Positions 3,934 through 14,850 of a DNA stretch of 15,251 nt are shown here, in pieces. A model generated the notes under the pieces. The model did no database searches, had not been told where the DNA came from, and saw nothing but the letters and a program-made list of their open reading frames with translations. Source of the DNA: Leptospiraceae bacterium (GTDB taxonomy: Bacteria; Spirochaetota; Leptospiria; Turneriellales; Turneriellaceae). Within the stretch, counting starts at the first letter, position 1, and each line of letters starts with the position of its first letter. The position numbers and the translations under genes were made by a program. Where the stretch lies: NCBI GenBank assembly GCA_016788945.1, contig JAEUSA010000294.1:1-15251 (forward strand). Direction: 5' to 3'.

Positions 3934-5205
3934 ATGTTTACTTACAATCACGATAATCTCGTATGGCATGGTGTAGCACTTCCGGAGCTCACCCGCTCGA
4001 TTGCGGACAAATTGCTGCGCGAATATCAATATTCGGGGCACTTCTGGCTCTATAGCGAACAGCTGTTGAACGAGCGCCTGAAACTTCTGGAACAGCAGTT
4101 GCCCGGTTGCGGCTTTTATTATTCGGTCAAATCGCAGTCGAACCTTGCGTTACTTGCGCAAATTGCCGCGCATAAACGTTTCGGTGCGGACGTCGTGTCG
4201 GGCGGGGAGCTTTACCGCGCCCTAAAAGCCGGCTTCGAACCCGGAAAAATTGTTTTTGCCGGTGTCGGAAAAAGCGAAGCAGAAATTCAGTCAGCGCTCG
4301 ATTTTCAGATACGCAGCCTGCACGTCGAAAGTATTTCAGAACTCAAAGATATTGCGCGCATAGCTTCGGCGAAAGGCGTAGTTGCCTCAGTAACATTGCG
4401 GCTGAACCCCGACGTCGAAGTCGACACGCACCGGCATATCACCACGGGAAAAGAAGAGAATAAATTCGGCCTCAGCGAAAACGATTTTCAGCTTTCGCTG
4501 AAGCTCATCGCCTCATCTGCGAATCTGAAACTCGTCGGCCTGCAGGCGCACATCGGCTCGCAGATATTTGATTCAGCGCCCTACATCGAAACCGCAAATT
4601 TCCTCTCAGAAAAATATGCTGCCGTTAGGCAGGTGATAAGTTATCCGCTCGAATATATTTCGCTCGGCGGTGGTTTCGGCGTCAAATATGAAAACTTAGA
4701 AGGCGACGCGGTCAATTTTGATTTCGCCGGTCTTGTCGAGGCAATACGCAAGATTTTCAGTGATATTGAAATTCATTTTGAACCGGGTCGCTTTATTTCA
4801 GCCCCGCTGGGCATTCTGCTGACACGCGTGCGCCATCTCAAAGAACGCACGGGTAAAACGATTGCGATCATCGACGCGGCCATGAACGACCTGATTCGCC
4901 CGATGCTTTATGAAGCGTACCATCCGATTTTACCGCTCGTGCGCCGCGCAGCGCAGCATACGTACGATGTCGTGGGTCCGGTCTGCGAATCGACCGACAC
5001 GTTCGCTACGAAACGACGCCTGAGCGAACTGGCCGAAAATGACTGGCTGGCGGTGGGTTATGCCGGCGCTTATGGCTCGTGTATGAGTTCGAATTTTAAT
5101 TCGCGGCCGTTAATACCTGAAATTATGTTAGAGGCTTCGGGGACCGTGCGCGTCATCCGCAAGCCGCAGACGCTCGAGCAAATGGTTTCACTGGAACTCA
5201 CTTAG
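3934..5205 (+). CDS. lysA: Diaminopimelate decarboxylase
   Basis: LysA is a PLP enzyme that decarboxylates meso-diaminopimelate to L-lysine, the last step of lysine synthesis. This 423-residue protein is a fold-type III decarboxylase. The PLP lysine is in YSVKSQSN (Lys66), with AHIGS (about 206-210), the phosphate-binding GGGFG (245-249), EPGR (283-286), the catalytic Cys351 in GPVCESTDTF, and Tyr380 near GYAGAYGSCMSS. The CESTD motif and length favour DAP decarboxylase over ornithine or carboxynorspermidine decarboxylases, although substrate cannot be proven from sequence alone. The last four codons, with the stop, lie inside the 44-bp palindrome of the neighbouring mobile element, so the extreme C-terminus may have been altered by its insertion. 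Confidence 0.93.
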   Translation: MFTYNHDNLVWHGVALPELTRSIADKLLREYQYSGHFWLYSEQLLNERLKLLEQQLPGCGFYYSVKSQSNLALLAQIAAHKRFGADVVSGGELYRALKAGFEPGKIVFAGVGKSEAEIQSALDFQIRSLHVESISELKDIARIASAKGVVASVTLRLNPDVEVDTHRHITTGKEENKFGLSENDFQLSLKLIASSANLKLVGLQAHIGSQIFDSAPYIETANFLSEKYAAVRQVISYPLEYISLGGGFGVKYENLEGDAVNFDFAGLVEAIRKIFSDIEIHFEPGRFISAPLGILLTRVRHLKERTGKTIAIIDAAMNDLIRPMLYEAYHPILPLVRRAAQHTYDVVGPVCESTDTFATKRRLSELAENDWLAVGYAGAYGSCMSSNFNSRPLIPEIMLEASGTVRVIRKPQTLEQMVSLELT

Positions 5206-5433
5206 GGGTAGATTTAAATCTACCCCTAAGTGAGTTCGCAATTTCGCCATGATTAACAAATGCACGTGGTCTTTATGACCGCCGGATGTAATGAGCTCGC
5301 CACCAAGTTCCTTGGCCTTTATCGAAAATAAGAGCTGAAGACTGAGAAGAGATTCGTCATCCAATACCGGTGCTTTCCGCTTCGTTCCAAAGATAAAATG
5401 ATAGGCAAGGTCATATTTGTTCCGACCTGACAT
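5188..5433 (-). pseudogene. Truncated IS200/IS605-type (HUH/Y1) transposase
   Basis: The 81-residue frame starts MSGRNKYDLAYHFIFGTKRK and contains GGHKDHVHLLI with the HUH pair His56/His58, typical of Y1 transposases (TnpA of IS200/IS605, or RAYT relatives). Intact enzymes are usually about 130-170 residues with a catalytic Tyr near residue 120-130. Here the family-like sequence ends at about residue 65, and the remaining codons simply read into the palindrome at 5194-5237. The catalytic Tyr is therefore missing and the product cannot transpose by itself. The ATG has a good GGAG SD supplied by the right-hand palindrome, so a short peptide could still be made. Confidence 0.8.
5194..5237. repeat. 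44-bp perfect palindrome at the left end of the mini element
   Basis: The sequence is perfectly self-complementary with no spacer, its centre between 5215 and 5216 (GATTT|AAATC). It includes the lysA stop codon at 5203-5205. On the RNA it would make a very strong hairpin, and without a T-run it could still protect or end the lysA transcript. Confidence 0.97.
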
Positions 5434-5440
5434 CCGAATT

Positions 5441-5476
5441 CTCCATAGGGGTAGGTTTAAACCTACCCTTATGGAG
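5441..5476. repeat. 36-bp near-perfect palindrome at the right end of the mini element
   Basis: It is centred between 5458 and 5459 (GGTTT|AAACC), with a single mismatch that becomes a G-U pair in one strand of RNA. It shares its central ~24 bp pattern with the left palindrome. It contains the TAA (5469-5471) and last codons of the convergent glycosylase gene and the SD of the truncated transposase. Confidence 0.95.
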
Positions 5477-6122
5477 CGGCAAGGATTTGGGCGATTTGTT
5501 GTCTGAGCTTCGGCACTACATCGGCTTCAAACCACGGATTTCGTTTGAGCCATAGTTTGTTTCGCGGTGAGGGGTGTACGAGGGGTAATAATTTTCCGCG
5601 AGTGAAATCCGCCCGATGTACAAGTTCACTGACGGCAAGTTTTGCCTGTTGAGGCAGATAACGGCGTACGGCGTATGAGCCGATGAGCAGCGTGAGTTGG
5701 ATATTCGGCAGCAGCGCGTGCAACTTGGCATGCCAAAGCGGTGCGCATTCAGCTCGGGGTGGCAGGTCGAAGGTGCGCCATCCTTGGCGCTGACCTGCCC
5801 TATCGCCCCCACGCGCTTCGGGCCGGTGCCTCGCTTTCCCTTTGCCAGGGTAACAAAACCCCATCGGTATGATGGCGAAAATTTTTTCGTCGTAGAAGAT
5901 GTTGCGGTCAACGCCGAGCCAGTCCCTGAGTTTGTCACCGCTGGGGTCATTCCACGGAATTCCCGTGGCGTGCACGCGCGTGCCGGGCGCCTGGCCAATT
6001 AGCAGAATGCGGGCGTCCGAATGCGCGCGCAGAATCGGGTTTGCGCCCAATGGCAGATGGGGCGAACAGGCTTTGCAGTCACGGACTTCTGTTAAGAGTT
6101 CATTTAGGGGGTCACGACGCAT
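5469..6122 (-). CDS. Uracil-DNA glycosylase superfamily protein with four-Cys (Fe-S type) pattern
   Basis: This 217-residue DNA repair enzyme candidate would remove uracil or a similar base from DNA. Motif A is LLIGQAPG (41-47), and the second active-site motif is VHPSPRN (182-188), followed by NPWFE. Cys16 and Cys19 (CKAC), Cys90 (MGFC) and Cys126 (RAEC) are spaced as in the 4Fe-4S UDG families, except that the Cys90-Cys126 gap is long. About 12-22 extra residues sit at roughly 97-118, within GKGK-to-DLPPR. The DNA for part of these (5761-5799) is a hairpin repeat, suggesting an insertion that kept the frame. The ATG at 6122 overlaps the upstream nucleotidyltransferase gene by 11 bp. Longer readings enter that gene and look unconserved. 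Confidence 0.85.
   Translation of the reverse strand: MRRDPLNELLTEVRDCKACSPHLPLGANPILRAHSDARILLIGQAPGTRVHATGIPWNDPSGDKLRDWLGVDRNIFYDEKIFAIIPMGFCYPGKGKARHRPEARGGDRAGQRQGWRTFDLPPRAECAPLWHAKLHALLPNIQLTLLIGSYAVRRYLPQQAKLAVSELVHRADFTRGKLLPLVHPSPRNKLWLKRNPWFEADVVPKLRQQIAQILAAP
5761..5799 (-). repeat. Hairpin repeat inside the glycosylase coding sequence
   Basis: An outer stem, GGCAGGTC (5761-5768) with GACCTGCC (5792-5799), encloses an inner stem GCGCCA (5775-5780) with TGGCGC (5785-5790) and a 4-nt loop. On the coding strand the inner part reads GCGCCAAGGATGGCGC, one base different from the hairpin at 8572-8587. The outer arms differ between the copies, as in small interspersed palindromic elements. 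Confidence 0.75.
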
Positions 6123-6792
6123 TGGTTGCGTCAAGGTACTCTTGTATTTTTTCGAGCATGGACGGCGGTATTTTGATGTCCTGTTCTTTGAGCCGCGAAA
6201 TGTACTTGTTGAATGACATGCGATGGCTCGACGAGCGGGTAAATTCAATCAGCGCTTCGGTGAGGTGATCTTCGATGCGTTTGAAGAGTTCTCTGTTGCC
6301 TGAAATGGCTTGTTCGTACTTGCGAATCGGTAACTTGTTCACGCCGCGGCAGATCGTGCGGTAGAAAACAAAACGGGCGAGAATGTCGTCGTCGAACCCC
6401 GGTTCGCGTATCGCTCGATCGAGCCGGCGCAGGTTGATAAAGTCGACGATCTGCAGCTTAAACGGGTTGTGGCTGATTTCCTTGAGAATTGTGGCGAAAA
6501 ACAGGGATTCATAGATGCGCAGCATCGGTGTGTTGTCATAGCGCGCCTCTTCTTCATGGCCGCAGTCAATGTACATGACGATATCAACATCAGAACTTTC
6601 GACCGCCATGCCGAAGTTGGCAGAGCCTAACAGATCGAACGAAATTTTTTCTCCGGTCTGCTGAATGATTCGCGCTGCGCGTGCGAGTTCGCGCGTGCGC
6701 ATCCTGTTCTCTTCGGTGGTAAATTTGCGAAAATAATCTTTGAGGCCGAGAAATTTTCTGAACGCTTCGTTTTCCGGAAATGGATTGCGCAT
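6112..6792 (-). CDS. Pol-beta-type nucleotidyltransferase domain protein
   Basis: This 226-residue protein carries the minimal nucleotidyltransferase signature LLGSANFGMAVESSDVDIVMY (about 54-74): Gly56-Ser57, then Asp68-x-Asp70 as metal ligands. A third acidic residue is probably Asp117 in LQIVDFINL. The rest is mostly helical and charged, without an HEPN, KH or CCA-adding region that I can recognise. The substrate, whether nucleotide, tRNA, protein or small molecule, is unknown. The gene begins 2 bp after the metallophosphoesterase stop and overlaps the glycosylase start by 11 bp, so all three are probably co-translated. An ancillary role in nucleic-acid or nucleotide metabolism is inference from context only. 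Confidence 0.8.
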   Translation of the reverse strand: MRNPFPENEAFRKFLGLKDYFRKFTTEENRMRTRELARAARIIQQTGEKISFDLLGSANFGMAVESSDVDIVMYIDCGHEEEARYDNTPMLRIYESLFFATILKEISHNPFKLQIVDFINLRRLDRAIREPGFDDDILARFVFYRTICRGVNKLPIRKYEQAISGNRELFKRIEDHLTEALIEFTRSSSHRMSFNKYISRLKEQDIKIPPSMLEKIQEYLDATNAS

Positions 6793-13625: not shown

Positions 13626-13652
13626 AAAACCCCGGCTACGCCGGGGTTTTTT
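13626..13652 (+). terminator. Intrinsic terminator of the outer-membrane protein gene
   Basis: AAAACCCCGGC-TAC-GCCGGGGTTTT is a perfect 11-bp stem with six T at its 3' end. It lies 40 bp after the stop and separates this unit from the small lipoprotein gene. Confidence 0.93.
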
Positions 13653-13989: not shown

Positions 13990-13992
13990 TAC

Positions 13993-14027
13993 AAAAATAA
14001 TCGGGGGCGTAGCCCCCGATTATTTTT
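13993..14027. terminator. Bidirectional terminator between the lipoprotein gene and folE2
   Basis: A perfect 16-bp stem (13993-14008 with 14012-14027) around GTA has five A on the left and five T on the right, so it works on both strands. It includes the folE2 stop codon (14020-14022) and its preceding codon or two. Confidence 0.95.
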
Positions 14028-14850
14028 GCTTCTCTATCAGCGCATACGCTGAGTGGTTGTGTATCGATTCGAAATTCTCCGCTTCGGCGACGTAGTAGCT
14101 GATGCGGTCGTCTTGGTTCAGACGGTGGGCGACATCGCGCACAAGGTCTTCGACAAATTTTGGATTTTCATAAGCTTTTTCTGTGACGTACTTTTCATCG
14201 GGACGTTTGAGCAGACCAAATAGTTCGCACGAAGCGCTTTCTTCTGCAATGCGGATAATGTCTTCAATCCACAGAATATTGCTGCCCTCGGCCGCTTCGG
14301 AGAGTCTCGCGTTGATCGTGATATGGCTGCGCTGGTTGTGCGCTCCGTATTGTGATATTTCTTTCGAACACGGGCACAGGCTGGTGACGGGAACCACGAC
14401 TTTGATGCGCAGGTCAGTTACACCATCTTCACATTTGCCGATAAAAGTAACGTCGTAATCCATCAGGCTCTGCACGCCGCTCACAGGGGCCGATTTTTTT
14501 ACGAAAAAGGTAAAACGCATTTCAATTTCGCCGACATGCGATTCGAGGCGTTCCAGCATCTCGGGCAACATGGCCTTGAATGAAGGTACGTCGAGGTGCT
14601 CTTTGCGTTCGAGAATTTCGACAAAGCGGGACATATGCGTGCCCTTGAATTGTTGTGGTAGATAGACATACATGTTCAGTTCGGCCACGGTATTCTGCAC
14701 TTCGCCGGTTTTGTCTTTTATCTGTATCGGATAGCGTATGCCCTTGATGCCGACTTTATCAATAGCGATGCGCCGGGTGTCTGCGCTCGACTGAACGTCA
14801 ACGAGGGTATTGGGGGTGCCAAGGGCCGTGCCGGCCGTTGCTGATGCCAT
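14020..14850 (-). CDS. folE2: GTP cyclohydrolase FolE2 (GCYH-IB)
   Basis: FolE2 performs the same reaction as FolE, GTP to dihydroneopterin triphosphate, but is unrelated in sequence and uses several divalent metals instead of strictly zinc. This 276-residue protein has VDVQ...[19 protein letters not shown] (17-42), the catalytic-cysteine motif [20 protein letters not shown] (157-176; Cys159), [28 protein letters not shown] (212-239) and [10 protein letters not shown] (261-270). All are typical of the family, whose normal length is 260-300. Its gene is separate from the folE run and has its own promoter region, so the two can be controlled independently. No Zur-like box was recognised upstream. 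Confidence 0.95.

Follow-up and report, generated by a model that had tools for sequence, protein, structure and literature searches.

Loopless palindromes at the ends of lysA and a uracil-DNA glycosylase gene in a Turneriellaceae draft genome: possible copies of a REP-like repeat tied to an IS200-type transposase

The stretch analysed here, hereafter the window, is the whole 15,251-nucleotide contig JAEUSA010000294.1 of a Leptospiraceae bacterium of the Turneriellaceae, genus Turneriella (GenBank assembly GCA_016788945.1; contig 314 of a 3.70-Mb draft, G000), in which two loopless palindromes form the ends of the convergent genes lysA and uracil-DNA glycosylase (UDG) and enclose a remnant of an HUH transposase gene, tnpA. 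The same palindromic core is dispersed through this genome and several Turneriella relatives, its copies carry perfect outer arms specific to their sites, and in Turneriella parva a pair of cores flanks an intact tnpA; loopless palindromes stand beside TnpA in two genera. With moderate confidence, and judging from sequence comparison, we read the window palindromes as copies of a REP-like (repetitive extragenic palindromic) repeat tied to a low-copy IS200-type HUH transposase, whose cores would settle in foldable host DNA and whose arms would be extended by template switching.

The recognised unit is probably the loopless palindromic core of 26-28 bp. By analogy with the IS200/IS605 and REP transposases, TnpA would handle this core as a single-stranded hairpin, and copies would settle where host DNA folds, for example in the tip of a hairpin already present or next to a short inverted repeat. 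Flanking bases would then be copied from arm to arm through template switching at the hairpin, leaving a stem that is perfect 5-12 bp into host sequence, and the TAG stop codons of the core would thereby become gene ends. We infer the TnpA-catalysed mobility, the hairpin targeting and the template-switch extension from the comparisons that follow.

The dispersed core and its transposase

An earlier note on this DNA, made from the sequence alone, had described a 44-bp perfect and a 36-bp near-perfect palindrome, and both were recovered. What they have in common is the conserved core of about 26-28 bp, (G)TAGGGGTAG-R-TTTAAA-Y-CTACCCCTA(C), of which they share 26 bp; the common pattern stops there, however, and the outer arms (GAACTCACT on the left, CTCCA on the right) differ, each being specific to its own site. 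The sole mismatch of the right palindrome is the very base that changes the core TAG to TAA, and reading the sequence bore out that the stop and last codons of lysA and UDG lie inside the palindromes.

With up to three mismatches allowed, the core occurs at nine sites in the own genome (two in the window and seven elsewhere, so that the note's idea of further palindrome copies held good), 16 in T. parva (G004), four in G005 and three in G002, and at none in the Turneriella drafts G001, G003 and G006. Outside the genus, 54 genomes gave a single one-mismatch match (G060; a reversed-pattern control also gave one) and a single three-mismatch match (G050). Most copies are solo, without a flanked transposase, and in most the core is a perfect loopless palindrome with its GTAG inside the paired core rather than in an unpaired foot. 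The half-site TAGGGGTAGRTTT has nine matches in the own genome against one for the reversed control; all nine fall within palindromes, and on this ground half-sites as DNA uptake signals were rejected.

In T. parva two cores at a distance of 446 bp enclose an intact 120-aa TnpA, the full-length transposase between matching palindromes that the note had envisaged. Palindrome-tnpA-palindrome is therefore a genuine unit, and the window is its decayed copy. The reading frame in the window matches positions 2-62 of the 121 positions of Y1_Tnp (PF01797; 39.5 bits) and is 56% identical to residues 1-66 of the T. parva protein; only the N-terminal part is matched, so the half with the catalytic tyrosine is missing, in agreement with the note. 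That a non-autonomous family is mobilised in trans, as the note suggested, is plausible given the intact T. parva unit and the dispersed solo copies, but a profile search at E 0.001 found no other Y1_Tnp in the own draft, and there is therefore no visible source for such mobilisation. The T. parva TnpA carries the motif YIQNQENHH and scores 77.9 bits with the IS200 equivalog NF033573 (cut-off 55) and 85.8 bits with PF01797. The three Y1_Tnp proteins of T. parva are mutually dissimilar, and of the two not flanked by cores only one is close to a core, at a distance of 1.4 kb, and it has its own palindromes.

Y1_Tnp matches in the genus number ten, at zero to three per Turneriella genome: the window remnant, one Y---NP type (L037 of G005) and eight of a Y---Q type. 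Each of the eight Y---Q-type loci has a loopless palindrome with an arm of at least 10 bp within 250 bp, on both sides in six, and the palindrome centres read TTTAAA, AATTAATT, CTTAAG or CTATAG, among others. The signature Y---Q--HH is present in seven of the eight aligned proteins, the remaining one (L042) reading YIRNQWQMH. For the 16 loci with a Y-motif core, out of 30 given (L149 and L150 failed the motif yet have palindromes), 18 palindromes were counted in 13,645 bp near TnpA versus five in 38,683 bp at greater distance. In a second spirochaete genus (g58), loopless palindromes lie beside TnpA in all five loci examined, a set that excludes the G135 fragment and the weak G155 match. A protein search for TnpA returned 36 homologues, all with PF01797, and a contig scan with three close TnpAs, other than the window's nearest, gave four loci, two spirochaetal and two from Verrucomicrobia. 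Apart from these, the Y---NP-type L037 (YIQQNP) has an in-frame loopless palindrome, GTAGAGACGCGATTAATCGCGTCTCTAC, at 1454-1481.

Turneriella genomes contain the motif GGGNTTAANCCC, whose counts are upper bounds on palindromes, 7-38 times each and g58 genomes 14-36 times (reversed pattern 0-3); in ten other spirochaetes it occurs 1-8 times versus 0-4 for the reversed pattern. Copies of a T. parva subfamily with a GCTATGGGCTT half again have differing perfect arms, here of 2-10 bp.

The T. parva cores leave a 2.02-Mb arc of the chromosome, from 1.93 to 3.95 Mb, without a GGGGTAG core; an equally large gap arose in 909 of 200,000 random placements of the 14 core positions (the tnpA pair counted once and a degenerate match omitted). 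Adding 19 GGGNTTAANCCC positions to the cores, with close neighbours counted as one, reduced the largest gap to 1.28 Mb (27 of 50,000 random placements). Despite the 2.02-Mb gap, cores as chromosome-organising sites were rejected, since such a role is hard to square with the arms and the link to TnpA.

Outer arms, gene ends and sister sites

In 20 of 32 core copies the palindrome stays perfect for 5-12 bp past the shared 13-nt half core, whereas a displaced-centre control gave 0 of 192. Past the first mismatch, pairing is at chance level (92 of 384); the arms end abruptly. The count includes L056, L058 and L114 and leaves out the differently built T. parva 597881 and 779585 and G002:C304, and in GTAG copies one conserved G is counted as arm. 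Arms are mostly unique per site and include coding sequence (lysA, UDG, mnmE); a TTGTTTG arm is common to L043 and L047 of T. parva. Both known tnpA units have matched inner and outer arms at both ends, and the inner sequences differ between the units.

Such stems might instead be functional hairpins under selection, serving as bidirectional terminators or mRNA-end stabilisers, with RNA pairing preserving the arms and the transposase link being historical. We consider this unlikely, though the folds of the window palindromes are very stable (as single strands, 7 to 10 standard deviations below dinucleotide shuffles and equalled by none of 200), four own-genome core sites (C155, C314, C374 and C204) separate convergent genes whose stop codons fall within the stem or next to it, and at the same gene ends some relatives have a different perfect hairpin (mnmE in G002, 18 bp; ispD in G000, 18 bp, and in G005, 10 bp). 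Placement in T. parva speaks against it: by our own reading of a naive open reading frame (ORF) map, three of 15 sites are convergent, seven co-directional, four divergent and one unclear, a degenerate match at 1595487 being omitted, and the arms at the divergent sites (L044, L045, L052, L055b) are equally perfect. Pairing moreover ends abruptly rather than decaying, with G.T at the first unpaired position in only eight of 32 copies; no T-run follows either window palindrome on either strand, as read from the sequence, so that the U-tract of an intrinsic terminator is absent; and one copy is read in frame, as VGVGLNLPL, inside the FeoB linker of G002. T. parva FeoB has a different palindrome, with 13-bp arms, at that linker position. 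The note had seen the element as both 3′ end and terminator of the two genes, of which the first part stands, with both stops inside the cores, and the second is a possibility. Terminator use looks incidental, because four of the 15 T. parva sites are divergent; termination at convergent gene ends is possible, but it would not be the origin of the family.

The case for landing at an existing stem tip comes from a T. parva cobalamin riboswitch (RF00174, 31.3 bits with gathering at 31.5, E 2.4e-6), in which two conserved boxes are 54 nt apart and one core copy accounts for 46 of these nt. Among the nine other riboswitches of the genus, three have a different perfect hairpin there with 15-20 bp arms, and the longest perfect arm of the remaining six is 5-9. 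Across the cobalamin riboswitches L203-L212, long perfect hairpins of unrelated sequence were seen in the variable stem of four of the ten (arms of 20 bp in L204 and L205, 23 bp in L209 and 15 bp in L212).

Arm copying, in turn, is favoured by the mnmE-yggS junction. In the six genomes read, the C-terminus of MnmE is always IGK* or VGK*. That of YggS is GSR* in G001 and G006, GERTFP* in G003 and GSRQVTSAAG* in G002, and it is GHR* in the two genomes with the core, G000 and T. parva. In G002 the YggS stop is overrun by the hairpin, which has another tip and arms of 18 bp. The two arms of G000 differ from those of T. parva at the same two positions, silently in the coding parts, which would fit either template switching or independent insertions at one hotspot. 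Comparison of eight sites in T. parva and G002 showed that at three of them (L044, mnmE, FeoB) the species lacking the core has a perfect hairpin of a different kind, with an arm of at least 9. As for the window itself, lysA and UDG are adjacent in two other drafts, G003 without a palindrome between them and G001 with about 0.5 kb of other sequence there, so the arrangement is not the same in all relatives; the note had held that a uniform arrangement with no empty site would argue against a mobile unit. This comparison used 16 of 17 prepared protein pieces and did not find the adjacency in the remaining four Turneriella relatives.

Perfect hairpins with arms of at least 12 bp and a loop of up to 6 number 26 in 300 kb of T. 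parva (L123-L137), 21 of them with a loop of 1-6; the same search gave one in 100 kb of G006 (L138-L142) and none in one base-shuffled copy of each. The spread of hairpins in T. parva is thus wider than the core family.

Contrary evidence, alternatives and known systems

Several observations weigh against a transposase-tied repeat with copied arms. In twelve of the 32 core copies the arms are shorter than 5 bp, and in two of these twelve, L046 and L008, the core is perfect. T. parva contains further perfect hairpins whose tips differ and whose loops measure 1-6 nt, so perfect arms are neither peculiar to the core family nor proof of TnpA action. Outside Turneriella, six of eight Y-motif loci lack such palindromes (the spirochaetal L151, L154, L157, L158 and L159, and L145 from Verrucomicrobia); the link of Y-motif TnpA to loopless palindromes is not universal. 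Only seven of 15 sampled GGGNTTAANCCC sites are palindromes with arms of at least 9 (six of ten in T. parva), hence the upper bounds given above, and G002, G003 and G005 carry the motif, yet their drafts are without a Y---Q-type TnpA. At the other five of the eight sister sites the arms are 5-7 bp, where the longest in 200 random 100-mers is 7; hairpin targeting is therefore not general. Finally, the compared genomes held no clean filled/empty pair with alignable flanks, and no transposition was observed.

The same five sister sites, without a hairpin beyond chance, also tell against the idea that cores insert solely at the tips of pre-existing inverted repeats and that nothing is copied afterwards. 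It draws on the T. parva riboswitch, where the arms fill a stem needed by the RNA, but arms are entirely absent from some cores (L008) and the C-terminus of YggS is apparently overwritten by the mnmE arm, and we judge it improbable. We think it similarly doubtful that the hairpin itself is the replicating unit, in which case TnpA would attach a loopless hairpin of 28 nt to single strands of host DNA, and extension of the hairpin's free 3′ end along the host strand would leave the reverse complement of the target next to each insertion; if true, the arms would be a fossil record of self-primed insertion and this would be a mechanism for REP dispersal. Least probable is a plain IS200/IS605 mini-insertion sequence, which was the note's own view and would make the palindromes its left and right ends and the solo copies deletion derivatives: TnpA does belong to the IS200 equivalog, and palindromes stand at both ends in the T. 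parva unit and in the window, but no unit with this core is present twice in the genomes searched, the solo copies have only the core in common, and the differing inner arms of the two known units leave no fixed boundary beyond it. With most copies solo and outer arms specific to their sites, the palindromes are not the termini of one mini-element.

The REP-like reading also has to be set beside the systems described so far. REPtrons and TIRtrons combine low-copy Y1 transposases with flanking dispersed palindromes (PMC3733652, PMC6006769, PMC8266576). The closest likeness is to REP/TnpA-REP (RAYT), REPtrons and REPINs, in which a low-copy Y1 HUH gene is flanked by a palindrome dispersed between genes and sometimes within them. 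TnpA here is, however, Y---Q--HH where RAYT is Y---NP, and it falls below the cut-off of the RAYT model NF047646 (19.5 bits against 80); in contrast to REP, there is no unpaired GTAG foot or loop; the palindrome is perfect and loopless, and its outer arms are specific to each site. In its Y---Q--HH motif, short core and low copy number, the protein resembles the little-studied TnpA subclass 1.2, which Quentin et al. (2018; PMC6006769) present as generally without the typical terminal IS200 secondary structures. The present case differs in being spirochaetal, with solo copies and with loopless palindromes beside all eight genus loci, absent though they are at six of eight other motif loci. TIRYTs and TIRtrons, tyrosine transposases with flanking inverted repeats in moderately sized dispersed families, some of them self-complementary, are similar as well; their GGGGWSAS is not present here, where the core reads GGGGTAGR, and the section of PMC3733652 on TIRtrons describes no site-specific arms. 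With IS200/IS605 the family shares the TnpA family and hairpins near both ends, but it shows a single-copy unit, dispersed solo hairpins and, in the window, a truncated TnpA. The Y1 HUH domain is complete in the T. parva TnpA and reduced to its N-terminal half in the window, and several near-identical whole-element copies are lacking (one Y1_Tnp in the own draft, three dissimilar ones in T. parva). Template switching is reported (PMC8794818) to create perfect inverted repeats from flanking DNA and to maintain pairing by multibase compensatory changes; it is a mutational process and not an element, whereas here it would act on a mobile core.

The family differs from these systems in the class of its TnpA, in a core that has neither a loop nor a GTAG foot, and in perfect arms specific to each site. 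In a search of open-licence full texts, the titles and abstracts of the matches listed gave no description of loopless palindromes with site-specific arms; no listed match had Turneriella palindromes as its topic, and neither exact core was found among the matches listed. Other loopless palindromes presumably resemble cyanobacterial repeats. The family bears on the spread of REP-type palindromes in that a minimal loopless repeat retains a visible trace in its perfect site-specific arms; it has a candidate cognate transposase in T. parva, whose chromosome is one contig, and it ties a TnpA subclass described as generally without terminal structures to a repeat family. Hairpin repeats of the family have turned into gene ends and stop codons, and also into the stem of a riboswitch and a protein linker read in frame.

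Features of the window

Table 1. Positions of the palindromes, cores and adjoining genes in the window.
Feature	Position	Strand	Remarks
Left loopless palindrome	5194..5237	.	44 bp, perfect 22-bp arms; outer arm is the final 9 lysA bases ahead of the stop, inner arm the complement of those 9
Left conserved core	5203..5228	.	26 bp, TAGGGGTAG-A-TTTAAA-T-CTACCCCTA; includes lysA stop TAG 5203-5205
Right loopless palindrome	5441..5476	.	36 bp, 18-bp arms, one mismatched pair; outer arm is the final UDG codons, inner arm lies upstream of the tnpA start
Right core	5446..5471	.	Substitution at 5469 turns TAG into TAA, the UDG stop
IS200-like tnpA remnant	5236..5433	-	HUH half only, Y1_Tnp positions 2-62; truncated near the left palindrome; without catalytic Tyr
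Remnant reading frame, 81 aa	5188..5433	-	Start 5433, stop 5188; runs through the left palindrome as LGVDLNLPL
lysA (diaminopimelate/ornithine decarboxylase fold), 423 aa	3934..5205	+	Stop TAG within the left core
UDG superfamily gene	5469..6248	-	259-aa ORF from the first possible start; stop TAA within the right core

Elsewhere in the window, tandem TTCTACA-N-TGTAGAA inverted repeats with 16-bp arms and a 5-nt loop (2161-2197) lie between a TetR-like regulator gene (1563-2114, -) and a dihydrofolate-reductase-like gene (2212-2745, +), both named by eye, and look like an operator. Further perfect hairpins near gene ends are found at 13992-14028 (17-bp arms, loop GTA) and 13626-13650 (11-bp arms).
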